Of a DNA stretch of 42,242 bases, positions 15,346 through 29,487 are shown piece after piece. Every line of letters begins with the position of its first letter. Position 1 is the stretch's first letter. Origin of the DNA: Candidatus Iainarchaeum sp. (lineage in GTDB: Archaea; Iainarchaeota; Iainarchaeia; Iainarchaeales; JAAZKV01); NCBI GenBank assembly GCA_028702895.1, contig JAQVNZ010000004.1, forward strand, positions 1 to 42,242. The letters are read 5' to 3'. Under the pieces are notes generated by a model. The model searched no databases. It was not told where the DNA came from and saw only the letters and a program-made list of their open reading frames with translations. The position numbers and the translations under genes were made by a program.

Positions 15346-15390
15346 CGTCAATTGTCGTCTCAATCTTCGTCTTTTGGAAAGGTTTTTATA
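15346..15390 (+). promoter_or_regulatory. Candidate three-box operator plus BRE/TATA of gltD-like/HMGR operon
   Basis: CGTCAATTGT-CGTCTCAATCTT-CGTCTTTTGGAAA-GGTTTTTATA; same 0/+10/+22 spacing recurs at 18111 and 27297. Confidence 0.65.
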
Positions 15391-15465: not shown

Positions 15466-16803
15466 ATGCAGATTCCAAAAATATCCATTGGCGAAAGAAA
15501 AAATTCTTTTAAAGAAGTAGAAATAGGTTTCACTGAAGAAGAAGCACTCAAAGAAGCAAACAGATGTTTAAATTGTAAAAATCCGTTGTGCGTTGAGGGT
15601 TGTCCAGCAAATGTAAACATTCCTCTTTTTATAAAAGCGTTTAAAGAAGGAAGATTACAGGATGCTGCTGAAATAATTCGTGAAAAAAATTTTTTCCCAA
15701 GTATTTGTGGAAGAATTTGTCAACATGAAAAACAATGTGAAGGAAATTGCATACTAGCAAAAACAAAAGAAGGTGCTGTGAATATTGGTGGAATAGAAAG
15801 ATTTATTGGGGATCAAGCAAAACTTTCTTCTCCAAGAAAATTAAATGGAAAAAAAGTAGCTATTGTTGGTTCAGGCCCAAGTGGATTAACTGCCGCAGCA
15901 TACTTAGCATTAGAAGGAGTAAATGTTTTTGTTTTTGAAACAACAAATTCTTTTGGTGGAGTAATAAAATATGGTGTTCCCGAATTTCGTTTACCTAAAG
16001 AAACCGTTTCAAAAGACTTAATAATGTTACACGAACTTGGAATTGATTTTGAACCAAATTCAAAAATATCTGAAGATTTAATTGAAGAAGTTTCAAAAAA
16101 TTATGATGCTATTTTTGTTGGTACTGGAGTAGGTGCAACAAAAAAATTGTCAATTCCAGGATCAGATTTAAAAGGAATTATTTCAGCAATGAAATTTTTA
16201 GTTAATTTAAATCAAAGCGGAGTACCAATGGTTTCACCAGGTGAAAATGTTGTAGTTATTGGCGCAGGATATGTTGGAATAGATGCGTCTAGAAGTGCAA
16301 TTAGATTGGGTGCAAACGTAAAATGTATTACTGCGGCAACTAGGGAAGATGCACAAAAAAGTGTTTCGCCAAAAGATTATTTAGATGCAGAAGAAGAAGG
16401 AGTGGAATTTTTATTCGGTTATAATGTGGATAAATTTGAATCTGACGAAGACAATGATAAAGTAAAAAAAATATTTTATACTAATGGAGAAAAAGGAAGT
16501 GTGCAAGTAGACAAAGTAATAATTGCAATAGGTCAAGAGCATGATAAATCAGAATTAAAAAATCCGTTAAGAAACCCAGAATTGGGTTGTATTGAAGTTA
16601 ACAAAAAATATCAGACTAAAATAAAAAATGTTTTTGCAGCAGGTGATTGTGTACATGGTCCAAAAACAGTTATAGAAGCAATTGCTAATGGTAGAGATGC
16701 TGCTAAAGAAATATTACATTATTTTAAAAAAATAGATGAAGAAATAGAATTAAAATCTCAAAAAGATTTAATAGAAAAAGAGGTATCAAAAAATAAATTA
16801 TAA
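15466..16803 (+). CDS. Glutamate synthase small subunit-like / NfnB-like NADPH oxidoreductase (FeS + two FAD/NAD(P) domains)
   Basis: ANRCLNCKNPLCVEGCPANVNIPLFI, CGRICQHEKQCEGNC, KVAIVGSGPSGLTAAAYLA, VVVIGAGYVGIDASRSA, VFAAGDCVHGPKTVIEAIANGRDAA. Confidence 0.9.
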   Translation: MQIPKISIGERKNSFKEVEIGFTEEEALKEANRCLNCKNPLCVEGCPANVNIPLFIKAFKEGRLQDAAEIIREKNFFPSICGRICQHEKQCEGNCILAKTKEGAVNIGGIERFIGDQAKLSSPRKLNGKKVAIVGSGPSGLTAAAYLALEGVNVFVFETTNSFGGVIKYGVPEFRLPKETVSKDLIMLHELGIDFEPNSKISEDLIEEVSKNYDAIFVGTGVGATKKLSIPGSDLKGIISAMKFLVNLNQSGVPMVSPGENVVVIGAGYVGIDASRSAIRLGANVKCITAATREDAQKSVSPKDYLDAEEEGVEFLFGYNVDKFESDEDNDKVKKIFYTNGEKGSVQVDKVIIAIGQEHDKSELKNPLRNPELGCIEVNKKYQTKIKNVFAAGDCVHGPKTVIEAIANGRDAAKEILHYFKKIDEEIELKSQKDLIEKEVSKNKL

Positions 16804-16808
16804 AAAAG

Positions 16809-18095
16809 GTGATAAAAATAAATAAAAAAAGTTTTGAAGGATATTATAAAAAAAGCATTAAAGAAAGACAAGAAATATTATCAAAAGAATTATTATTAAC
16901 AAATGAAGAACAAAAACTTTTAGAAAAAGAAAGTTCTCTTTCATTTGATATTGCAGATAGAATGATAGAAAATGTTATAGGAACATTTCCTTTGCCATTA
17001 GGTTTAGCAACAAATTTTGTGATTGATGAAAAAGAATATGTGATTCCCTTTGCAATAGAAGAACCAAGTGTAATCGCAGCTGCTAGTAATGCTGCAAAAT
17101 TATCAAATGGGTTTATTACAGAAAATGATGAACAAATAATGATTGGCCAATTACAATTAATTAATTTAGAAAATGCTTGCGAATCAAAGAAAAAAATTTT
17201 AGAAAATAAAGAAAAAATTTTAAAAGAAGTAGAAAAAGTAGATCCAATACTCGTAAAATTTGGTGGGGGCCCAAGAGACTTAAAAGTAAATATATTAGAC
17301 ACGCCTCGCGGAAAAATGATTGAAGTGCAATTATTAGTTAATGTTGGAGATGCAATGGGTGCTAATGCAATAAATACTATGCTTGAAAAAATAACTTCTG
17401 TAATAGAAGAAATTTCTGGTGGAAAACATGTTGCAAGAATAATATCTAATTTAGCAATTTATAGACGAACCCAATCAAAAACTATTTGGACAAAAGAAAA
17501 ATTAGAAGAAAGTGTTAAAGGAACAATGAAAGGTGAAGAAATAATTGAACGAATATTAGATTTATATGAGTTTGCAGTAGCAACACCATTTAGGTGTGCA
17601 ACGCATAACAAAGGAATAATGAACGGAATCGATTCAGTTGTAATTGCAACAGGAAACGATTTTCGCGCAATAGAAGCAGGAGCACATGCTTATGCAAGTT
17701 ATAAGGGAAAATATTCTCCGCTAACAAAATACTATAAAAATTCTAACGGTGATTTAGTAGGTGAAATTGATATTCCATTAGCATTAGGATTAGTTGGTGG
17801 CGCAATAAAAGTTCATCCAATAGCAAAATTAAATGCAAAAATCTTAGGATTAAAAAAAGTACAAGATCTTGCTAGTGTGATTGCATCAGTTGGATTAGCA
17901 CAAAATTTTGCAGCAATGAGGGCTATTGCAACAACAGGAATACAATCAGGGCACATGAAATTACACGCAAAAAATATCGCAGTACAAGCAGGAGCAATAA
18001 AAGAAGAAATTGAATTAGTTGCACAAAAAATGATTGAATTAAAAGAAGTAAATCAATTAACAGCTGAAAAAATAATTGAAGAAATTAGAGAATAA
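16809..18095 (+). CDS. Hydroxymethylglutaryl-CoA reductase, class II-type
   Basis: FEGYYKKSIKERQEIL, RMIENVIGTFPLPLGLATNFVIDEKEYVIPFAIEEPSVIAAASNAAKL, VGDAMGANAINTMLE; GTG start 3 nt after the preceding stop region (the only plausible start near the conserved N-terminus). Confidence 0.93.
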   Translation: MIKINKKSFEGYYKKSIKERQEILSKELLLTNEEQKLLEKESSLSFDIADRMIENVIGTFPLPLGLATNFVIDEKEYVIPFAIEEPSVIAAASNAAKLSNGFITENDEQIMIGQLQLINLENACESKKKILENKEKILKEVEKVDPILVKFGGGPRDLKVNILDTPRGKMIEVQLLVNVGDAMGANAINTMLEKITSVIEEISGGKHVARIISNLAIYRRTQSKTIWTKEKLEESVKGTMKGEEIIERILDLYEFAVATPFRCATHNKGIMNGIDSVVIATGNDFRAIEAGAHAYASYKGKYSPLTKYYKNSNGDLVGEIDIPLALGLVGGAIKVHPIAKLNAKILGLKKVQDLASVIASVGLAQNFAAMRAIATTGIQSGHMKLHAKNIAVQAGAIKEEIELVAQKMIELKEVNQLTAEKIIEEIRE

Positions 18096-18110: not shown

Positions 18111-18154
18111 CGTCAATGAGCGAACCTTTTTTCGTCAATCAAAAGGTTTTTATA
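18111..18154 (+). promoter_or_regulatory. Candidate three-box operator plus BRE/TATA of HMGS operon
   Basis: CGTCAATGAG-CGAACCTTTTTT-CGTCAATCAAAA-GGTTTTTATA. Confidence 0.65.
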
Positions 18155-18216: not shown

Positions 18217-19254
18217 ATGGCTGGAATAATTGGGTGGGGAGCATATATACCAAAATACAGAATAACTGCTGAAGAAATAGCCTTAGTGAATAATGATAAT
18301 GCGAATGCGATAAAAGCGGGTTTAGGTTTAACAGAAAAAAGTGTTCCTGGAAAAGACGAAGATACAATAACAATTTCACACGCTGCTACAAAAAATGCTA
18401 TTCTGCGAGCAGGAATAAAAACAAAAGAAATTGGTTCAATTTATATTGGTTCAGAAAGTCACCCTTATGCAGTAAAACCATCTTCAAGTATTGTTGGCGA
18501 TGCAATTGATTTAGGAAATGATTACATGGCCGTTGATACTGAATTTGCTTGTAAAGCAGGTAGTGCAACAATACAATTCAACATGGGTTTTGTTGATTCA
18601 AAAATGATAAATTATGGTTTAAGCATAGGTGCTGATACTAGTCAAGCAGAACCAGGAAATGCGTTAGAATATTCCGCTGCTGCTGGTGGCGCAGCATTTG
18701 TAATTGGAAAAAATGAAGAAGCAATTGCAACAATAGATTACACTTGTTCGTTTACTAGTGATACTCCTGATTTTTGGAGGCGAGCAATGCAACCTTATCC
18801 ATCTCATGCTGGGAGATTTACTGGTGAACCTGCTTACTTTAAACATGTTGTTGGTGCAACAAAAATGATTTTAGAAAAAACTAAAATGGAAATGAAAGAT
18901 TTCAAATATGTTGTATTTCATATGCCTAATGGAAAGTTTCCTGAACGCGTTGCAAAAATATTTGGGGTAACAAAAGAACAATTAGAACCAGGATTAATAG
19001 TAAAAAAAATTGGTAATACTTATTCGGGTTCAGCATTACTAGGATTAACTTGTGTATTAGATATAGCAAAACCAGGAGATAAAATTTTGATGACAAGTTA
19101 TGGTTCAGGGTCTGGGTCAGATTCATTTATTTTAACATGCACAGAAAAAATTGTTGGCGCGCAAAAAAAAGCACTAACAACACAAGATTATGTTGATAGA
19201 AAAGAATATTTGACATATTCAAAATATCGTAAACATATGGAGACAATACATTAA
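18217..19254 (+). CDS. Hydroxymethylglutaryl-CoA synthase (archaeal)
   Basis: GIIGWGAYIPKYRI, EFACKAGSATIQ, HMPNGKFPERVAKIFG, GNTYSGSALLGL. Start refined to ATG 18217. Confidence 0.94.
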   Translation: MAGIIGWGAYIPKYRITAEEIALVNNDNANAIKAGLGLTEKSVPGKDEDTITISHAATKNAILRAGIKTKEIGSIYIGSESHPYAVKPSSSIVGDAIDLGNDYMAVDTEFACKAGSATIQFNMGFVDSKMINYGLSIGADTSQAEPGNALEYSAAAGGAAFVIGKNEEAIATIDYTCSFTSDTPDFWRRAMQPYPSHAGRFTGEPAYFKHVVGATKMILEKTKMEMKDFKYVVFHMPNGKFPERVAKIFGVTKEQLEPGLIVKKIGNTYSGSALLGLTCVLDIAKPGDKILMTSYGSGSGSDSFILTCTEKIVGAQKKALTTQDYVDRKEYLTYSKYRKHMETIH

Positions 19255-19282: not shown

Positions 19283-19340
19283 TTTTATTTTAAAAAAATT
19301 TGTTTTTAAAAAAATTAATAAAAAAATTGGTGAAAAAATG
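19283..19340 (+). repeat. AT-rich leader copy 1 (before thiolase)
   Basis: ttttattttaaaaaaatttgtttttaaaaaaattaataaaaaaattggtgaaaaaatg closely matches 23902-23973. Confidence 0.5.
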
Positions 19341-20495
19341 AAAATAGGTGTAATAGGAATTGGAATTACTCGATTTGGAGAAATTTGGGATAGGGGTTTA
19401 CGCGAATTACTTTTAGACTCACAACTTCGTGCACTTAACGATGCAAAAATTGTTCCACAACAAATTGACGCAATGTTTACTGGAAATATGTTAGGTGACT
19501 CATTATCTGGCCAAGTTCATATTGGAGCAATGGCTACTGAAAACTTAAATTTAGATAAACCAAGTATTCGCGTTGAAGGAGCATGTGCTTCTGGAGCATT
19601 AGCATTACGACAAGGAATAAAAGCAATTGAATCTGGAGACGCAGAAATTGTAATGGTTAATGGAGTAGAAAAAATGACTGATGTTGACACGGGTCAAGTA
19701 ACAACCGCATTAATGGGAGCGGGAGATGAAGAATTAGAAGGGTTTCATGGGTTAACATTTCCTGGATTATATTCATTATTAGCAAACGCATACATGCACA
19801 AATACCCTAGTCTTACAAGAGATATTTTAGCAGAAGTTGCAGTAAAAAATCATTTTCATGGTGCAAGAAATTCTTATTGTCAATTCAAAAACGAGATAAC
19901 AAAAGAAACAGTAATTAATTCTACAATGGTAGCAGACCCTTTAACATTATTTGATTGTTCGCCAATAACAGATGGTTCTGCAACAATAATAATTGCAAAA
20001 GAAGAAATTGCAAAAAAAATGAATTCAGAAGTTTTTATTACAGGTTCAGGTTTAGCAACAGACACATTATCCTTAGCTAGAAGAAATACGCTAACAGCAA
20101 TTCCGGCTGGACAAAAAGCTGCAAATCAAGCATATGCACAATCAAATATAACTTCAAAAGATATTAGTTTCGCAGAAGTACATGATTGTTTTACTATAGC
20201 AGAAATAATGGCAGTTGAAGCATTAGGTTTTGCAAAAGAAGGAGAAGCATTTAATTTATATAAAAATAAAGAGACTTATTTTGATTCAAAACATCCAATA
20301 AATACTTCAGGTGGATTAAAAGCTTGTGGCCATCCTGTTGGAGCAACTGGAATAAAACAAGCAATAGAAGCAACAATGCAATTAAGAGGCGAAGCAAAAA
20401 ATAGGCAAGTTTTAAACGCAACAGTTGGAGTAACGCATAATGTTGGTGGTAGCGGAGCAACAGCATGCGTGCATGTTTTTAAGAGGTTGAGATAA
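19338..20495 (+). CDS. Acetyl-CoA acetyltransferase (archaeal thiolase)
   Basis: VEGACASGALALRQGI, FAEVHDCFTIAEI, NTSGGLKACGHPVGATGIKQ. Confidence 0.93.
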   Translation: MKIGVIGIGITRFGEIWDRGLRELLLDSQLRALNDAKIVPQQIDAMFTGNMLGDSLSGQVHIGAMATENLNLDKPSIRVEGACASGALALRQGIKAIESGDAEIVMVNGVEKMTDVDTGQVTTALMGAGDEELEGFHGLTFPGLYSLLANAYMHKYPSLTRDILAEVAVKNHFHGARNSYCQFKNEITKETVINSTMVADPLTLFDCSPITDGSATIIIAKEEIAKKMNSEVFITGSGLATDTLSLARRNTLTAIPAGQKAANQAYAQSNITSKDISFAEVHDCFTIAEIMAVEALGFAKEGEAFNLYKNKETYFDSKHPINTSGGLKACGHPVGATGIKQAIEATMQLRGEAKNRQVLNATVGVTHNVGGSGATACVHVFKRLR

Positions 20496-20894
20496 ATGTT
20501 TAGAGAAAGCCCAATTATAAGATGGAGAAATTATTCGGATAGATACAAACTTTCGGGCCATAAATGTACTAAATGTGGTGCAAATTATTTTGAAAAAAAA
20601 GGTATGTGTGTTTGTGGAAACTTAATTTTTTCAGAAATGTTTTTTTCAGGAAATGGAAAAATTGTTTCATTTACAAAAATACATTCTGGTCCAAGTGTTT
20701 TTGAAGAACAATCTCCTTATTGTGTTGCAATAATTGATTTAGAAGAAGGTGCAAGAATAACTGCCCAAATAGTTGATTGTAAATATGATGAATTAAAAAT
20801 TGGTTTAGGAGTAGAAGCAGTTTTTAGAAAATTATATAAGAGTGGAGAAAAAGGAATAATCCATTACGGAACAAAATTTAGGTTAAAATTATAA
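20496..20894 (+). CDS. DUF35 OB-fold/zinc-ribbon protein (partner of archaeal thiolase/HMGS)
   Basis: Zn ribbon KCTKCGANYFEKKGMCVCG followed by OB-fold; starts directly after the thiolase stop. Confidence 0.9.
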   Translation: MFRESPIIRWRNYSDRYKLSGHKCTKCGANYFEKKGMCVCGNLIFSEMFFSGNGKIVSFTKIHSGPSVFEEQSPYCVAIIDLEEGARITAQIVDCKYDELKIGLGVEAVFRKLYKSGEKGIIHYGTKFRLKL

Positions 20895-20944: not shown

Positions 20945-21883
20945 ATGGGTTCTAGTGGGAAAGGATTTGCAAAAACAATTCTCTTTGGAGAACACTTTGT
21001 AGTATACGGTTTACCAGGCATAGCTGCGGGATTAGATAAATTTGTTCAAGCAGACGTGCAAACATTAAAAGATTCTAAAGAAATTATTTTTGATGATAAA
21101 GTTTTTGGAGAAAAATTTTCTATTAGTGAACAACCAGAGCATATTAAAAGTCAATTATTTAATGCAATGTTTTCAAAAGAAGATTTAAATGAAAAAGGAT
21201 TAAAAATAAATATTACAGCAAATTTTCCACACGGTGCAGGATTAGGTTATTCAGCAGCATTAAGTGTTGCTATTGCAAGAGCAGTTTCAACTGAATTGGA
21301 TTTAGATTTAAAAGATGAAGAAATAAATGATTTGGCATTTAAAGCAGAAAAAATCGCACATGGTAATCCTTCTGGAATTGATAATGCGTGTGCAACTTAT
21401 GGTACAACAATTTTATTTGAAAAAGATTTTAAAACAAATGAAAACAAATTAAAACAATTAAAAAATTCTGCAAAATTATTTTGTTTACTAGTTGATACTG
21501 GAATAAAACATAATACAAAAGAAGCAATCAAAAAAGTTAAAGAAAACAAAGAATCTAACCCGCAAGAATTTGAAAGAATATTTTCTGATTATAAAAAAAT
21601 TATTGTGAAAGCAAAACAAGAATTAAAATTTGGTGGAATAAAAGAACTTGGAAAATTAATGAATGAGAATCAAGAATTATTAAAAAAAATTGGTGTTTCT
21701 TGTAAAGAAGCGGAAGACATAATACGAACAGCCACATTTGAAAATTGTTTGGGTGCAAAAGTAACAGGGGCTGGTTGTGGCGGAAACGTATTAATTTTAT
21801 GTGGGATTGAAAAAGAATTGGATAAAATAGCAAATATTTTACAAGCAAAAAAATATTCTATAATAAAAACAAAAATAAGTTAA
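20945..21883 (+). CDS. mvk: Mevalonate kinase (GHMP family)
   Basis: GFAKTILFGEHFVVYGLPGIAAGL, FPHGAGLGYSAALSVA, KVTGAGCGGNVLILC. Confidence 0.95.
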   Translation: MGSSGKGFAKTILFGEHFVVYGLPGIAAGLDKFVQADVQTLKDSKEIIFDDKVFGEKFSISEQPEHIKSQLFNAMFSKEDLNEKGLKINITANFPHGAGLGYSAALSVAIARAVSTELDLDLKDEEINDLAFKAEKIAHGNPSGIDNACATYGTTILFEKDFKTNENKLKQLKNSAKLFCLLVDTGIKHNTKEAIKKVKENKESNPQEFERIFSDYKKIIVKAKQELKFGGIKELGKLMNENQELLKKIGVSCKEAEDIIRTATFENCLGAKVTGAGCGGNVLILCGIEKELDKIANILQAKKYSIIKTKIS

Positions 21884-21934
21884 TGTTCTAAAATTTTTTA
21901 AAAAATAAAATAAATTATTTTTAATTTGATTATT

Positions 21935-22501
21935 ATGAATAATAAAAAAATTATTGTCGCAGTTACTGGGGCATCAGGAACAAATTATGCACTAGCTTTA
22001 CTTACAGCGTTAAAAAAACAAGAAATAGAAGTTCATCTTATTGTTAGTGACTGGGCAGAAAAAGTTTTAAAAGAAGAAACTGGAAAAAAAGTTATTGAAT
22101 TAAAAAAACTTGCGACAAAAAATTATTCTAACACAAATTTAGCTGCAAACATTTCTTCAAGTTCGTTTCTAGTTGATGGTATGATAATTATTCCATGTTC
22201 AATAAAAACATGTTCTGAAATATTACATGCGCATACTTCAAATTTAATTACTAGGTGTGCGGATAATATGTTAAAAACAAAAAATAAATTAATTGTTGGT
22301 GTTAGAGAAACACCATTGAGTGGGCCCACATTAGAAAATCTTTGGAAACTTTCAATATATGGTGCAACAATATTTCCGCTAAGCCCTGGATTTTATCATA
22401 ATCCTAAAAAAATAAGTGATTTAGAAAGTTTTATAGTTGGAAAAGCATTAGATTTACTAGGGATTTCAAACAAAGAATATGTTAGATGGGAGAATAAATA
22501 A
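21935..22501 (+). CDS. ubiX: UbiX-like flavin prenyltransferase
   Basis: VAVTGASGTNYALALL, SFLVDGMIIIPCSIKTCSEI, NLITRCADNMLK, VRETPLSGPTLENLWKLSIYGATIFPLSPGFYHNPKKISDL. Start refined to ATG 21935. Confidence 0.93.
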   Translation: MNNKKIIVAVTGASGTNYALALLTALKKQEIEVHLIVSDWAEKVLKEETGKKVIELKKLATKNYSNTNLAANISSSSFLVDGMIIIPCSIKTCSEILHAHTSNLITRCADNMLKTKNKLIVGVRETPLSGPTLENLWKLSIYGATIFPLSPGFYHNPKKISDLESFIVGKALDLLGISNKEYVRWENK

Positions 22502-22595
22502 TTTTTAATTTAAAAAATAATTAAATTTAAATTAATTTAAAAAAAAGTTAAATTAAAAAAAATTAATTAATAAATAATAATTTTGGTGATTGATT

Positions 22596-23870
22596 ATGAG
22601 TTTTCGTGAATTTGTAAAAAAAACAGATTATGTTATTGATAAAGCAGTTTCAAAAAATTTACAAGCGAGTGGAATAATTTATTCTGCTAGTGATAAGAGT
22701 ATATTATTTAATAAAATAAAAGAAAATGATTACAAAGTTGCTGCTAATGTTTTTGCTTCAAAAGAAAAAGTCGCAAAATATCTTAATTGTGAAACCAAAG
22801 AATTAGTTCCATTAATGATAAACGCATTAAACAATCCATCTACTCCAGAACTTATTTTGAATACCGATCATGTGGAAATAGATTTAGATTTAGAAAAAAT
22901 ACCAATATTAATCCACACTGATTCAGATGGTGCGCCTTATGTTACAAGTGGGGTAATAATAGTAAAGGATTCGATTGTTGGGCAAAATGTTTGTTATCAT
23001 AGAGGTAGAGTTATTTTTAAAAATAAATTTGCTTTAAGAATACTTGAAAGAAATACTATGGAATTACTAAAAAAAAATAATGGTGAATTAAGAGCTGCTT
23101 ATTGTATTGGAATTGGGGCAGAAATTGCTTTAGCTGCAGCAATGGCTCCGGCATTAGGAGTTAACGAATTAGAAATAGCAAATACATTAAAACCAATAAA
23201 AGTTATTAATGCAAAAACATTTGATGCGATTTTACCTGCTGATGCAGAATTTATTTTAGAAGGAAAAATAAGTTTACATGAAAGACATAGCGAAGGCCCG
23301 TTCGTTGATTTGACTGGCACAAGTGATATTATAAGAGACGAACCAGTTTTTACAGTTGAAAAAATTTATGCTAGACCAAATGCAATATATCACGCGTTAT
23401 TACCTGGCGGGTTTGAACACAAAATATTAATGGGTATGCCAAGAGAACCAACAGTATTTGATGAAGTAAAAAAAGCGGGCGTTGATATAATAGATGTTAG
23501 TATTAATCCTGGTGGAAGTTCATGGTTTCATGTTTTAATTAAGATTAATAAAAAAACAGAGGAAGATGGAAAAAAAGCAATTGTGGCTGCTATGAAAGGA
23601 CATACTAGTGGAAAACATTTTTTTGTAGTTGATAATGATATTAATATTTATGATCCATTAGAAGTAGAATGGGCGTTTGCAACAAGATTTCAAGCAAATA
23701 AAGATTTTTATAAATTTGAAAACCAAAAAGGATCTTCGTTAGATCCAAGTGCTAATCAAGTAACAAGAGAAACTACTAAAGCTGGATTTGATTTAACAAT
23801 GCCATTAGACAGAATAAGTGAAATGAAGAGAACAAAATTCCCAGAAAATAATATAAAAGATTATTTGTAA
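22596..23870 (+). CDS. UbiD-family decarboxylase; candidate trans-anhydromevalonate-5-phosphate decarboxylase
   Basis: UbiD-like: GAEIALAAAMAP, FILEGKISLHERHSEGPFVDLTGTSDIIRDEPVFTVEKIYARPNAIYHALLPGGFEHKILMGMPREP. Specific substrate inferred from neighbours. Start refined to ATG 22596. Confidence 0.85.
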   Translation: MSFREFVKKTDYVIDKAVSKNLQASGIIYSASDKSILFNKIKENDYKVAANVFASKEKVAKYLNCETKELVPLMINALNNPSTPELILNTDHVEIDLDLEKIPILIHTDSDGAPYVTSGVIIVKDSIVGQNVCYHRGRVIFKNKFALRILERNTMELLKKNNGELRAAYCIGIGAEIALAAAMAPALGVNELEIANTLKPIKVINAKTFDAILPADAEFILEGKISLHERHSEGPFVDLTGTSDIIRDEPVFTVEKIYARPNAIYHALLPGGFEHKILMGMPREPTVFDEVKKAGVDIIDVSINPGGSSWFHVLIKINKKTEEDGKKAIVAAMKGHTSGKHFFVVDNDINIYDPLEVEWAFATRFQANKDFYKFENQKGSSLDPSANQVTRETTKAGFDLTMPLDRISEMKRTKFPENNIKDYL

Positions 23871-23901
23871 ATTAATTTGCATGATGATTAAAAGTCATAA
23901 T

Positions 23902-23973
23902 TTTTATTTTAAAAAAATTTTGTTTTTAAAAAAATTTAATAAAAAATTGTTTAAAAAAATTGGTGAAAAAATG
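23902..23973 (+). repeat. AT-rich leader copy 2 (before AcnX large subunit)
   Basis: ttttattttaaaaaaattttgtttttaaaaaaatttaataaaaaattgtttaaaaaaattggtgaaaaaatg; near copy of 19283-19340 with a short insertion. Confidence 0.5.
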
Positions 23974-25164
23974 TTATTAACAAAAGAAGAACAAGAAATG
24001 CTCAAAGGAAAATATGGTAATGCTGTTAAAAAAAGCATGGAAATACTTGTCGCATTAGGCGAAATTTATGGTGCTGAAAAATTAATTAGGGTTTCATCAG
24101 TACAAGTTGCGGGGGTAAGTTATGATAATTTAGGTGAATCTGGATTAGAATATTTATCTAATCTTTCAAAAGATGGTAGAGTAAAAGTTTTAACAACATT
24201 AAATCCTGCAGGAATGGATTTAGAAAATTATGAAGCATTAGGAATATCAGAAGATTTTGCAATAAAACAAAAAATGGTAATTGATTCATTTGCAAAAATG
24301 GGGGTAATAACCACTTGTACATGTACACCTTATTTGATAGGGAATACTCCAAATTTTAATCAACATATTGCTTGGAGTGAAAGTAGTGCGGTTGCTTATG
24401 CTAATTCGGTTCTTGGTGCAAGAACAAATAGAGAAGGCGGGCCAAGTGCATTGGCATCAGCATTAACTGGCCGAACACCTTTGTATGGATTGCATTTAGA
24501 TGAAAATAGAATTGCTAAAATAAAAATAATTGTAAAAACGCAAATAAAAGGAACTCAAAATTTTGGCGCATTAGGGAAAGTTATTGGTGAAAAAATAAAG
24601 TCAACTCCTTGTTATATTATTGGAATAAACGAAGCGAGTATGGAAGAATTAAAATCATTTTCTGCAAGTATTGCAACTTATGGTGGCGCAGGAATATTTC
24701 ACATGGAAAATATAACTCCTAATAAAACAGTTATTCCGTTAGAAGAATTAATTGTCACAAAAAAAGAAATAGAAAAAGCTTTAAACGAAATGAATATGGG
24801 TGATTGTGAAGTAGATTTTGTTAGCGTTGGATGTCCACATGCGAGTATCGCTGAAATAGCAAAACTAGCTGATTTATTAAATGGAAAAAAAGTAAAAAAA
24901 GAATTTTGGATAACAACTGCAAGACCAACAAAAAAAATTGCTGACATGAGCGGTTATTCTAAAATAATTGAAACTGCTGGGGCAAAATTCGCGTCAGATA
25001 CTTGTTGTGTTGTTGCGCCAATAAAAGGAAGATTCAAATGTCTTGCAACAGATTCTGCAAAAGGGTGTTATTATGCATATTCAAAAAATCAGTCAAAAAT
25101 AAAAATAATGTCAGTTGAAAATTTAGTGAAAGAAGCGTGCAAAGAACCAAGCGTGGTGAAATAA
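23971..25164 (+). CDS. Aconitase X large subunit; phosphomevalonate dehydratase large subunit
   Basis: MLLTKEEQEMLKGKYGNAVKKSMEILVALGEIYGAEKLI, TCTCTPYLIGNTPNFNQHIAWSESSAVAYANSVLGARTNREGGPSALASALTGRTP. Start refined to ATG 23971 with GGTGA SD. Confidence 0.93.
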   Translation: MLLTKEEQEMLKGKYGNAVKKSMEILVALGEIYGAEKLIRVSSVQVAGVSYDNLGESGLEYLSNLSKDGRVKVLTTLNPAGMDLENYEALGISEDFAIKQKMVIDSFAKMGVITTCTCTPYLIGNTPNFNQHIAWSESSAVAYANSVLGARTNREGGPSALASALTGRTPLYGLHLDENRIAKIKIIVKTQIKGTQNFGALGKVIGEKIKSTPCYIIGINEASMEELKSFSASIATYGGAGIFHMENITPNKTVIPLEELIVTKKEIEKALNEMNMGDCEVDFVSVGCPHASIAEIAKLADLLNGKKVKKEFWITTARPTKKIADMSGYSKIIETAGAKFASDTCCVVAPIKGRFKCLATDSAKGCYYAYSKNQSKIKIMSVENLVKEACKEPSVVK

Positions 25165-25556
25165 TGGCGAAATTAATTGGGCGAAAAATTTTTGGTGGAA
25201 TCGCGATGGGCGAAGCACTTGTTACAAAACAAGGAATAAGTTTTTTTGGGGGGATAGACCCATCTACTGGAGTAGTGACTGAATCAGGTCATGAATTAGA
25301 AGGAAAAAGTATTAGTGGAAAAATACTTGTTTTTCCCCAAGGTAAAGGGTCAACAGTTGGGAGTTATGCATTATATAGAATGAAAAAAGAAGGTACTGCT
25401 CCAATAGCATTAGTAAATAAAGAATGTGAAACAATAGTTGCTGTTGGTGCAATAATTTCAGAAATTCCTTGTGTTGATAAAATTGATATTCTACAAATAA
25501 AAAATGGTCAAAAAATAAAAGTTGATGGTGAAAAAGGAATTGTGATTTTTGATTGA
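25164..25556 (+). CDS. Aconitase X swivel/small subunit; phosphomevalonate dehydratase small subunit
   Basis: GRKIFGGIAMGEALVTKQGISFFGGIDPSTGVV, LVFPQGKGSTVGSYALYRM; ATG overlaps the large-subunit stop (TAATG). Confidence 0.93.
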   Translation: MAKLIGRKIFGGIAMGEALVTKQGISFFGGIDPSTGVVTESGHELEGKSISGKILVFPQGKGSTVGSYALYRMKKEGTAPIALVNKECETIVAVGAIISEIPCVDKIDILQIKNGQKIKVDGEKGIVIFD

Positions 25557-26016: not shown

Positions 26017-26817
26017 ATGAAAGATTTAATAATTTTAAAAATTGGCGGTTCTTCAATAACCAAAAAAGCCGAAAACAAATTTGAAATGAATGAAGAAATA
26101 TTAGAACGCGTGGCAAAAGAAATAGCAATTGCAAAAAAGAAAAAAGATTTTGATTTAGTTTTAGTTTGTGGTGTTGGGCCATTTGGACATACTAATGTTG
26201 TTAATTATAATTTAAATGGAAAAATTAAAACTCTTGCACAAAAAGAAGGTGTTTTAAAAACAAAAAAAGATTGTGATTTTGTTGCGTTAAAAGTAATAAC
26301 TGCGTTAAAAAAAAATGGTTTAATTGTTAATCACTTGCCTGGTTATAAAGTTTGTAAACAAGATGAAAGAAAAGTAATTTTTTTTGAAACGAATTCTTAT
26401 AAAAAATTATTAGAAAAAAATATTATTCCTGTTACAACTGGTACAATGGTGCATGATAAAAGTTTTAATTGGAGTGTTATGTCTGGAGATACAGTTATTT
26501 CAGAATTATGTAAATCTTTAAAACCAAAAAAAGTTTTAATAGGAACAGATGTTAACGGGATTTTTACTTCTGACCCAAAATTAAATAAAAAAGCAGAATT
26601 AATTGAACTAATAACAAAACAAAATTTAGAAAAAGTTTTAGAACAATGCGGTGAATCAAATTCAGTTGATGTTACTGGTGGAATGAAAGGAAAATTAGAC
26701 AAATTAGGGAAACAATTAGGAAATGTTCCTGCTGAAATATTTTCATTATTTATCCAAAAAAATTTAGAAAATGTTTTAAGTGGAAAAGAAATAAAAAGTA
26801 CAAAAATCAAGTTATAA
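26017..26817 (+). CDS. Isopentenyl phosphate kinase
   Basis: AAK fold: LIILKIGGSSITKK, VCGVGPFGHTNVVNYNL (conserved His), GDTVISELCKSLKPKKVLIGTDVNGIFTSDP, DVTGGMKGKL. Confidence 0.92.
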   Translation: MKDLIILKIGGSSITKKAENKFEMNEEILERVAKEIAIAKKKKDFDLVLVCGVGPFGHTNVVNYNLNGKIKTLAQKEGVLKTKKDCDFVALKVITALKKNGLIVNHLPGYKVCKQDERKVIFFETNSYKKLLEKNIIPVTTGTMVHDKSFNWSVMSGDTVISELCKSLKPKKVLIGTDVNGIFTSDPKLNKKAELIELITKQNLEKVLEQCGESNSVDVTGGMKGKLDKLGKQLGNVPAEIFSLFIQKNLENVLSGKEIKSTKIKL

Positions 26818-26819
26818 TT

Positions 26820-27305
26820 ATGATTCCAAACGCAAGAAAAAAAATTTCAAAAATGCATGTTGCTATTGCACAAAAAAAAGGTAGTGTAAAATTAAAAAAT
26901 GATATTCAAAAAATTCGTTTTGTTGAAAGAAAAATATTTGGTGTTGGAAAAACAATTTCTCAAAAAACATATTTTCATCCTAAAAAGAATTTGATTAAAA
27001 TTAAATTAGAAAGAGCTGGAAAAGAAATCGGAAAATTAGAAATTGGAATTAAAAAAATTGGAACTTATAAAGAAGCATTTTTTTCAGACGCGTTTATAAA
27101 AAAAACTATGCGTGAAAAAGGACTTTATTCACAAGTGGTTGCTCAAGCACTGGATGTTTTAACAAAATCGGGAGTTAATACAGTTAGATTTGAAGCTACT
27201 GGAGGACATTCTGTTTTAAAAAAAATGGGGTTCGAATCAAAATCACAATTTGGTAGTAGAATTTATTACAAAGAATTAAACCCACAAAAACAAGTTCGTC
27301 AATAA
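26820..27305 (+). CDS. GNAT-like acetyltransferase domain protein
   Basis: Motif A-like MREKGLYSQVVAQALDVLTKSGVNTVRFEATGGHSVLKKMGFE. Confidence 0.6.
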   Translation: MIPNARKKISKMHVAIAQKKGSVKLKNDIQKIRFVERKIFGVGKTISQKTYFHPKKNLIKIKLERAGKEIGKLEIGIKKIGTYKEAFFSDAFIKKTMREKGLYSQVVAQALDVLTKSGVNTVRFEATGGHSVLKKMGFESKSQFGSRIYYKELNPQKQVRQ

Positions 27306-27341
27306 ACGAAGCGATTTTCGTCTAAATGTAATGTTTTTAAA
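27297..27341 (+). promoter_or_regulatory. Candidate three-box operator plus TATA of por operon
   Basis: CGTCAATAAA-CGAAGCGATTTT-CGTCTAAATGTAA-TGTTTTTAAA. Confidence 0.6.
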
Positions 27342-27398: not shown

Positions 27399-27944
27399 AT
27401 GAAGCAAATAATTTTTTTAGGACGCGGTGGACAGGGAGCAGTTACAAGCTCACAAGTTCTTGCAATTTCTGCGTTTATTGATGGTAAACAATCACAAGCA
27501 TTTCCAAATTTTGGTGTTGAAAGAACAGGTGCACCAGTAAGAAGTTATTGTAGAATAGATGATAAAAAAATTAATTTAAGAGAACAATTAAAAGAAGCGG
27601 ATTATGCGTTAATTTTAGATCCCACATTAACAAAAAATTTAAATGAAAAGATAACTTCACTAATAATTGTTAATTCTAATAAAAAACCAGTTGACTTAGG
27701 CTTACAAACAAATGCGAAAGTAATTTGTATTGATATAACAAAAGTTGCAATGGAAAAAATTGGGAAACCATTTGTAAATATTTCAGCGCTAGGTGCTTTT
27801 GCAGCATTAACAAATGAAATAACTTTAGAATCATTAGAAAAAGCAGTTTTGCAACAAATGGGTGCAAAAGGAAGTATTGTAGAAAAAAATATTGAAGCAG
27901 TTAGAGAGGTTTATAAAATTTCTAAAAATGATTTGCAAAAATAA
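27399..27944 (+). CDS. porG: Pyruvate:ferredoxin oxidoreductase gamma subunit
   Basis: GRGGQGAVTSSQVLAISAFIDGKQSQAFPNFGVERTGAPVRSYCRI. Confidence 0.93.
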   Translation: MKQIIFLGRGGQGAVTSSQVLAISAFIDGKQSQAFPNFGVERTGAPVRSYCRIDDKKINLREQLKEADYALILDPTLTKNLNEKITSLIIVNSNKKPVDLGLQTNAKVICIDITKVAMEKIGKPFVNISALGAFAALTNEITLESLEKAVLQQMGAKGSIVEKNIEAVREVYKISKNDLQK

Positions 27945-27985
27945 TTTTATGATTTAAATAACTAAAAGATTAATGATTGATTTTT

Positions 27986-28279
27986 ATGGATAAAGAACTA
28001 AAAAGTAAAGATGGTGTAATTCTTACAAAAGGTGCGGTTATACGTGAGCCTGGATCAACAAAAAAATATAAAACTGGAGATTGGCGAACATTCAAACCAA
28101 GTATAGATCAAGAAAAATGTATTAAATGTGGGAAATGTTGGTTAAATTGTCCCGATGCTGCAATATACAAGGATAAAGATGGGAAATTTCAAATAAATTA
28201 TGATTATTGCAAAGGTTGTTTAATATGCGCGAAAGTTTGTCCTGTTAAAGCAATTGGTTTTGTGGTAGAAGAAAAATAA
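27986..28279 (+). CDS. porD: Pyruvate:ferredoxin oxidoreductase delta (ferredoxin) subunit
   Basis: GDWRTFKPSIDQEKCIKCGKCWLNCPDAAIY...DYCKGCLICAKVCPVKAI. Confidence 0.93.
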   Translation: MDKELKSKDGVILTKGAVIREPGSTKKYKTGDWRTFKPSIDQEKCIKCGKCWLNCPDAAIYKDKDGKFQINYDYCKGCLICAKVCPVKAIGFVVEEK

Positions 28280-28341
28280 TTTTGTTTAAGCGAATATGAT
28301 TTTTATTTGAAATGATTTAAGTTTATTTGGGAATGATTTTT

Positions 28342-29487
28342 ATGGTTGAAAAAAAAGTAATGTCAGGTTCAGAAGCAATTGCATTAGCAGTAAAATTATG
28401 CAAACCATTAGTTTTACCAATGTACCCAATCACACCTAGTACACTTGTTCCAGAAAAATTATCTGAATTTGTAGCTAATGGTGAATTAAACGCTCAAATG
28501 ATTTATGTTGAATCAGAACATTCTGCAATATCAGCTTTATATGGAGCATATGCTACGGGAGTTCGATCTTTCACAGCTACTGCTTCTCAAGGTTTAGCAT
28601 TAATGCATGAAATTATTCCAATAGTTTCTGCTTCAAGATTTCCAGCTGTAATGTTTATTGCAAACAGGGCTTTATCTGGGCCATTAAGTATTTGGAACGA
28701 TCATTCAGATTCAATGAGTGAACGCGATCAAGGTTGGATACAATTATTTTGTGAAGATATTCAAGAAGCATTTGATACTATAATAATGGCATACAAAATT
28801 GCTGAAAAAGAAAATGTTTCCTTACCTATAATGGTTTGCGCAGATGGTTTTATTTTAACACACGTTTACGAACCAGTACAAATAGAAGAACAAGAAAAAA
28901 TAACTGATTTTGTTGGAACATATAATCCAAAAGATTTTTTGGACACTAAAAACCCAAAAACATTTGGTGCATTCGCACAACCAAATACTTATTTTGAATT
29001 CAAAGAACAAGTACAAGACGCAATGATGGAAGCATTAAAAGAAATAAAAAATGTGAATGAAGAGTTTGGAAAAAAATTTAAAAGAAAATATGGTGATGGA
29101 TTAATAGAATTAATAGAAATGCAAGATGCAGAATATGCACTATTGATTGCAGGAAGTACTATTGGAACTGCAAGAGAAGTAGTAAAAGATTTAAGAAAAA
29201 AAGGTAAAAAAGTTGGGTTAATAAAATTAAAATCTGTTCGGCCATTTCCAACAAAAGAATTAATTTTAGCTTCAAAAAAATTAAAAGGATTAGGAATTAT
29301 AGATAGACATATTTCTTTAGGATATGAAGGCGCATTATGTACTGAAACAAAAGCAGCATTAGTAAAAGAAAAAGTTAATGTAACAGGATTTATCGCGGGA
29401 TTAGGTGGACGAGATATTGATAGAGAAAGAATAAGACACGCTTTTGATTTAATAATAAATGGAAAAGAAGGCGTTTGGTTAAAATAA
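28342..29487 (+). CDS. porA: Pyruvate:ferredoxin oxidoreductase alpha subunit
   Basis: YPITPSTLVPEKLSEF, ESEHSAISALYGAYATGVRSFTATASQGLALMHE, ANRALSGPLSIWNDHSDSM. Confidence 0.94.
   Translation: MVEKKVMSGSEAIALAVKLCKPLVLPMYPITPSTLVPEKLSEFVANGELNAQMIYVESEHSAISALYGAYATGVRSFTATASQGLALMHEIIPIVSASRFPAVMFIANRALSGPLSIWNDHSDSMSERDQGWIQLFCEDIQEAFDTIIMAYKIAEKENVSLPIMVCADGFILTHVYEPVQIEEQEKITDFVGTYNPKDFLDTKNPKTFGAFAQPNTYFEFKEQVQDAMMEALKEIKNVNEEFGKKFKRKYGDGLIELIEMQDAEYALLIAGSTIGTAREVVKDLRKKGKKVGLIKLKSVRPFPTKELILASKKLKGLGIIDRHISLGYEGALCTETKAALVKEKVNVTGFIAGLGGRDIDRERIRHAFDLIINGKEGVWLK

Follow-up and report, generated by a model that had tools for sequence, protein, structure and literature searches.

The 26-bp element at the HMG-CoA synthase (HMGS) promoter of our window (the whole analysed stretch of 42,242 nucleotides from Candidatus Iainarchaeum sp.) is an operator made of two overlapping dyads rather than three CGTC boxes, and its regulon takes in, besides the mevalonate genes, those of pyruvate:ferredoxin oxidoreductase and of a membrane protein with a 4-TM architecture. 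The element, its spacing and conservation, the regulon and the linkage to a regulator gene were established by computation. We hold it to be probable, with good though not full confidence, that this is a one-regulon mevalonate operator which is bound by an XRE/DRTGG-like regulator and sets pathway flux; that the protein binds, how its dimers are arranged, in which direction it acts and which ligand it reads are inferences.

Three copies occur in the window, all on the forward strand. Copy 2 (CGTCAATGAGCGAACCTTTTTTCGTC, 18111..18136; 29.2 bits with a PWM derived from family sites) belongs to the HMGS promoter and has the form CG-N8-CG-N10-CG. As the sequence-only reading had claimed, its boxes (CGTC, CGAA and CGTC at 18111, 18121 and 18133) reproduce the 0/+10/+22 spacing of copy 1, and its BRE/TATA block, GGTTTTTATA at 18145..18154, is identical to that of copy 1 at 15381..15390; the distance from box 3 to GGTTTTTATA differs by 1 nt (12 versus 13). 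The entire copy 2 block, CGTCAATGAGCGAACCTTTTTTCGTCAATCAAAAGGTTTTTATA (18111-18154), lies between the stop codon of HMG-CoA reductase (18095) and the ATG of HMGS (18217). Copy 1 (CGTCAATTGTCGTCTCAATCTTCGTC, 15346..15371; 33.9 bits) serves the promoter of a GltD-like gene and HMGR. The same reading had named two copies and missed a third, CGTCAATAAACGAAGCGATTTTCGTC at 27297..27322 (28.2 bits), located 5' of the pyruvate/2-oxoacid:ferredoxin oxidoreductase (POR) operon, whose promoter carries the TATA-like sequence TTTTTAAA at 27334..27341. In all three copies box 3 is 14-16 nt away from the TATA box, leaving the BRE free. A TATA-like A/T box with a purine-rich BRE (AAGGTTTTTATA) precedes the gene starts at copies 1 and 2 and is kept in relatives, as is to be expected of an archaeal promoter.

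The first gene 3' of copy 1 encodes the GltD-like FAD/NAD(P) oxidoreductase (15466..16803), followed by HMG-CoA reductase (HMGR, 16809..18095; PF00368, 352 bits). Copy 2 is followed by archaeal HMGS (18217..19254; TIGR00748 above cut-off), a thiolase (acetyl-CoA C-acetyltransferase, 19338..20495) and the DUF35/OB-fold partner of thiolase and HMGS (20496..20894; PF01796), then by genes for a mevalonate kinase-like GHMP kinase, UbiX, UbiD and the large and small aconitase-X subunits (20945..25556) and by an amino-acid-kinase family protein (26017..26817; PF00696) that from its context is probably isopentenyl phosphate kinase. We take this gene set to be the archaeal mevalonate pathway in its anhydromevalonate form, an assignment made from pathway knowledge. 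Copy 3 precedes the gamma, ferredoxin-like and alpha subunits of POR (27399..29487); all of these genes are on the forward strand. As a side observation, the gene for GGPP synthase is split after residue ~110 by an insert of ~0.5-1.4 kb, possibly an intein, in several relatives (L037:393-2864, L038:1579-4032, L168:9595-11184, L195:354-2819).

Alignment of the sites gives CGnCAATTGnCG(T/A)A-N6-TTCGnC, in which boxes 1 and 2 form a 12-bp palindrome, CGnCAATTGnCG, and boxes 2 and 3 a 14-bp dyad, CGAA-N6-TTCG, that overlaps the first. We rejected three independent CGTC words because box 2 is mostly CGAA or CGTA and the conserved pattern is that of two dyads. The middle box of copy 2 had been described as relaxed to CGAA: the letters are right, but it is not a relaxed CGTC, as CGAA and CGTA are common forms in relatives. 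Operators of 434-type XRE proteins are arranged like CGAA-N6-TTCG. Copy 2 has in addition a perfect 8-bp inverted repeat surrounding its box 3 (AACCTTTT/AAAAGGTT, 18124-18149), which is shorter in one relative (G004) and absent at the other copies.

At orthologous loci of relatives that share genus or family with the window genome, the copy 1 element is found 5' of GltD-like/HMGR in 10/10 family genomes, the window genome included, and the copy 2 element 5' of HMGS in five of nine. Four genomes (G001, G002, G005 and G008) lack copy 2, and copy 1 persists in every one of them. In G001 and G002 the gap between HMGR and HMGS is only ~40-80 bp, so that HMGS is probably transcribed from copy 1. Loss of the boxes with the genes still clustered, put forward earlier as a possible refutation, does therefore occur at copy 2, with copy 1 remaining. 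The copy 3 element is present 5' of POR (PORg) in four genomes, namely that of the window (G000), G003, G005 and G007; its retention in three relatives ties the supply of acetyl-CoA to the mevalonate regulon. Operator and TATA box also accompany the gene of the 128-aa 4-TM membrane protein (L055:4340-4805, minus strand), which carries the operator in three genomes of the same genus, G002 and G003 among them, and in G014 of another family. When a PWM trained on family sites only was applied to the mevalonate loci of other families in the order, the best matches at these held-out loci reached 17-26 bits and fell at GltD, HMGR or HMGS promoters; 15 of the 32 passed a Bonferroni-corrected p<=0.05 against dinucleotide shuffles. 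At the order loci the PWM detected no significant site in most of family f15, nor in f16, f18, f19 and f7, and f17 was mixed.

Unexpectedly, the PWM trained on the family also recovers the element in methanogens, Archaeoglobi, Diapherotrites and Micrarchaeota, where it sits 5' of a gene for an XRE-type regulator, with HMGS as the next gene (for example CGTCAAAAGACGAAACAAGTTTCGTTAAACTTATAAATT in the Archaeoglobales locus L308 and CGACAATAAACGAACTTGTATTCGTTAAATATATATG in Methanolobus vulcani, L332). It was present at p<=0.01 in 29 of 55 loci with linked regulator and HMGS versus 1 of 21 non-linked copies, and PWM scores at linked regulator promoters exceeded those of other windows (Mann-Whitney p=1e-20); these counts are not fully independent, as related genomes are included. 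With near-identical promoters removed, N8/N10 was the commonest of 143 three-CG spacings (21/51 promoters; grid mean 2.2). The operator is absent in three genomes that have HMGS without the regulator, and no site was found at the HMGR promoters of 13 distant genomes outside the order. The proposal that a shared operator coordinates the two mevalonate promoters is thus strongly supported, by the family, the order and the distant HMGS operons.

The candidate regulator is a 237-aa XRE-family protein encoded once in the window genome (G000:C2:4862-5572), unlinked to HMGS, and it is single copy in most relatives. In ten distant genomes of our domain sample a homologue precedes HMGS by 12-101 bp, both genes having the same orientation. 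Scanning named GTDB genomes yielded 80 regulator-homologue loci spanning Methanothermococcus, Methanoperedens, Methanolobus vulcani, Methanohalophilus, Methanosarcina, Archaeoglobi, Thermoplasmatota, Micrarchaeota, Diapherotrites, Hydrothermarchaeota and others, and in 58 of them HMGS follows the regulator gene on the same strand within less than 300 bp. The protein of the window genome scores 25.4 bits with PF01381 (cut-off 23), which 50/50 homologues match at E<=0.01, and the HTH region VSPSVISDYESGRRKSPG shows almost no variation between the window genome and methanogens. AlphaFold2, given 50 homologues, produced a model (pLDDT 90) whose N-terminal half is similar to the HTHs of P22 c2 repressor and C proteins, with weak PDB fold matches (E>0.02); the top PDB match of the C-terminal half is the DRTGG domain of AF1212 (prob 1.00, but a weak E=0.025). 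Pfam DRTGG was not matched by the homologues in the Pfam search, Pfam and NCBIfam recognise HTH families only, and no NCBIfam model exceeded its cut-off for either the first member or the window genome's own protein. NF003162 (PRK04140) matches 4/50 members weakly (best E=1.2e-4), which falls short of a clear match without formally excluding one; COG1395 was set aside as the regulator, the linked protein matching PRK04140 only weakly. Autoregulation in the window's family was likewise discarded, the PWM detecting no operator site at the promoter of the regulator gene there. Some genomes (families f20 and f22, genus g23) have the regulator without HMGS, so that it may control other genes. Together with the element-free distant HMGR promoters and the operator at the 4-TM gene, this means that the mevalonate role may not be exclusive.

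The mechanism that we consider best supported is inferred. The XRE protein, with its N-terminal HTH and C-terminal DRTGG-like domain, most likely binds the 26-bp operator beside BRE/TATA; dimers would occupy both dyads, whose centres are about one helical turn apart, and in this position could gate the access of TBP and TFB. The C-terminal domain may read a pathway metabolite or one related to acetyl-CoA, such that acetyl-CoA supply (POR), HMGS/thiolase and HMGR would be set jointly at the level of transcription. In many archaea the regulator gene is itself the first of the HMGS operon, and its promoter contains this operator too.

The sign of this control is inferred as well, and is most likely that of a feedback repressor, for which we have only a slight preference over an activator. 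Where the regulator gene heads the HMGS operon, box 3 directly adjoins the TATA box and abuts or overlaps the BRE (...TTCGTTAAATTTATA), which favours occlusion and autorepression. The operators of the window lie farther 5' of TATA with the BRE free, so that activation is not excluded. Bound there, the same regulator might instead recruit TFB/TBP at weak promoters, and the near-fixed 14-16 nt at all three window copies speaks for this; a position 5' of a free BRE resembles archaeal activator sites. Given the abutting arrangement in the linked operons, we regard activation as a serious possibility that nonetheless falls short of even confidence.

It is unlikely, in our judgement, that some other regulator, as yet unidentified, binds the element and that the XRE gene accompanies HMGS for another reason. 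Such a reading can draw on the XRE gene being unlinked in the window's own lineage, on the absence of biochemical data and on the existence of other HTH proteins in the genome. The HTH_3 proteins are few: besides the candidate there are a 67-aa protein on a small bacterial-looking contig, a 65-aa protein and a HipB-like one, their linkage having been considered for immediate neighbours only. (Contig C26 of the genome bin, L162, likewise has bacterial-looking genes, YetF-like and ComEC-like, and is probably bin contamination.) Against a different regulator stand the enrichment of the operator where XRE and HMGS are linked, its absence in the three HMGS genomes without XRE, and the near invariance of the HTH.

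We see very little room for copy 2 being an intrinsic terminator, or a hairpin in the RNA, that belongs to the HMGR operon before it. The inverted repeat AACCTTTT...AAAAGGTT is perfect over 8 bp and followed by T's, with an RNA fold z of -2.1, but copies 1 and 3 have no hairpin, the boxes are kept at promoters that are not 3' of HMGR, and conservation falls on the CG dyads rather than on the stem. The stem is A/T-rich where a terminator calls for a G+C-rich hairpin, and it exists at copy 2 only. This reading is largely refuted.

As for rarity, the loose copy 2 pattern has a single match in the window and none in 100 shuffles. Scanning 927 kb of the genome for CG-N8-CG-N10-CG with a TATA box within the next 3-16 nt returned exactly three sites (15346, 18111 and 27297), all in the mevalonate cluster; the mean over a grid of 121 spacings was 0.37, with N4/N10 the one other spacing also to reach three. 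The family PWM gave five high matches in the same 927 kb (33.9, 29.2, 28.2, 27.9 and 23.4 bits), the next non-self match scoring 15.2. That the boxes are chance occurrences or a generic promoter element of the lineage can be practically dismissed: GGTTTTTATA alone, with <=1 mismatch, is no commoner than chance, but element plus TATA is confined to one cluster in the 927 kb, and the element did not turn up at many unrelated promoters and is kept with the same genes from one phylum to another. Operator-like matches away from promoters were also noted (L125:19401-19426, minus strand, 27.9 bits; L166:2352-2377, 25.2 bits; L171:6747-6772, minus strand, 18.7 bits); all lie within LAGLIDADG or intein-like coding DNA, one adjoins an apparent intron-containing tRNA gene, and they may be due to chance.

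An operator, a regulon and a candidate regulator can now be assigned to a widely conserved family without known function, and the assignment is directly testable in methanogens and Archaeoglobi; it is also a rare instance in which a cis-regulatory element can be recognised in both tiny-genome archaea and methanogens. The regulator is presumably COG1709, an archaea-wide regulator of a similar kind. COG1709 (PAB0475) has been listed as an archaea-specific 'regulator', with no function, operator or regulon given (PMC1852104). In the open literature that we searched, subscription papers excluded, we found no description of this protein family, of an archaeal mevalonate regulator or of such an operator.

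The HTH of the candidate matches, in sequence and in the model, the XRE (PF01381) regulators 434, P22 c2 and the C proteins C.AhdI and C.BclI. Our operator shares with theirs the short dyads of 4-bp half-sites 6 bp apart and, as in C proteins, the placing of two dyads side by side close to the core promoter. What sets our system apart is that its promoter is an archaeal BRE/TATA one, its regulon biosynthetic, its half-sites centred on CG and the C-terminal domain of its regulator DRTGG-like; there are no binding data for it. TrmB/TrmBL1-type regulators of Thermococcales also combine a palindromic operator adjoining BRE/TATA with a metabolic regulon, but they belong to a different protein family and recognise a different motif. 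Archaea need the mevalonate pathway for their membranes. Eukaryotic SREBP resembles the candidate, by analogy only, in that HMGS and HMGR are coordinated by a single regulator to supply membrane lipids; protein and mechanism are unrelated. On balance, though with little to spare, we incline to see here a dedicated switch for isoprenoid-lipid homeostasis, shared by many archaea and a functional counterpart of SREBP, in which an XRE-DRTGG protein would sense a metabolite of the mevalonate pathway or of acetyl-CoA metabolism and, through one cross-phylum 26-bp operator, regulate HMGS, joined in some lineages by HMGR and by POR as producer of acetyl-CoA. A bacterial-type XRE regulator on archaeal promoters, its binding here being inferred, is of a known kind; the regulon is unusually broad and functionally clear.
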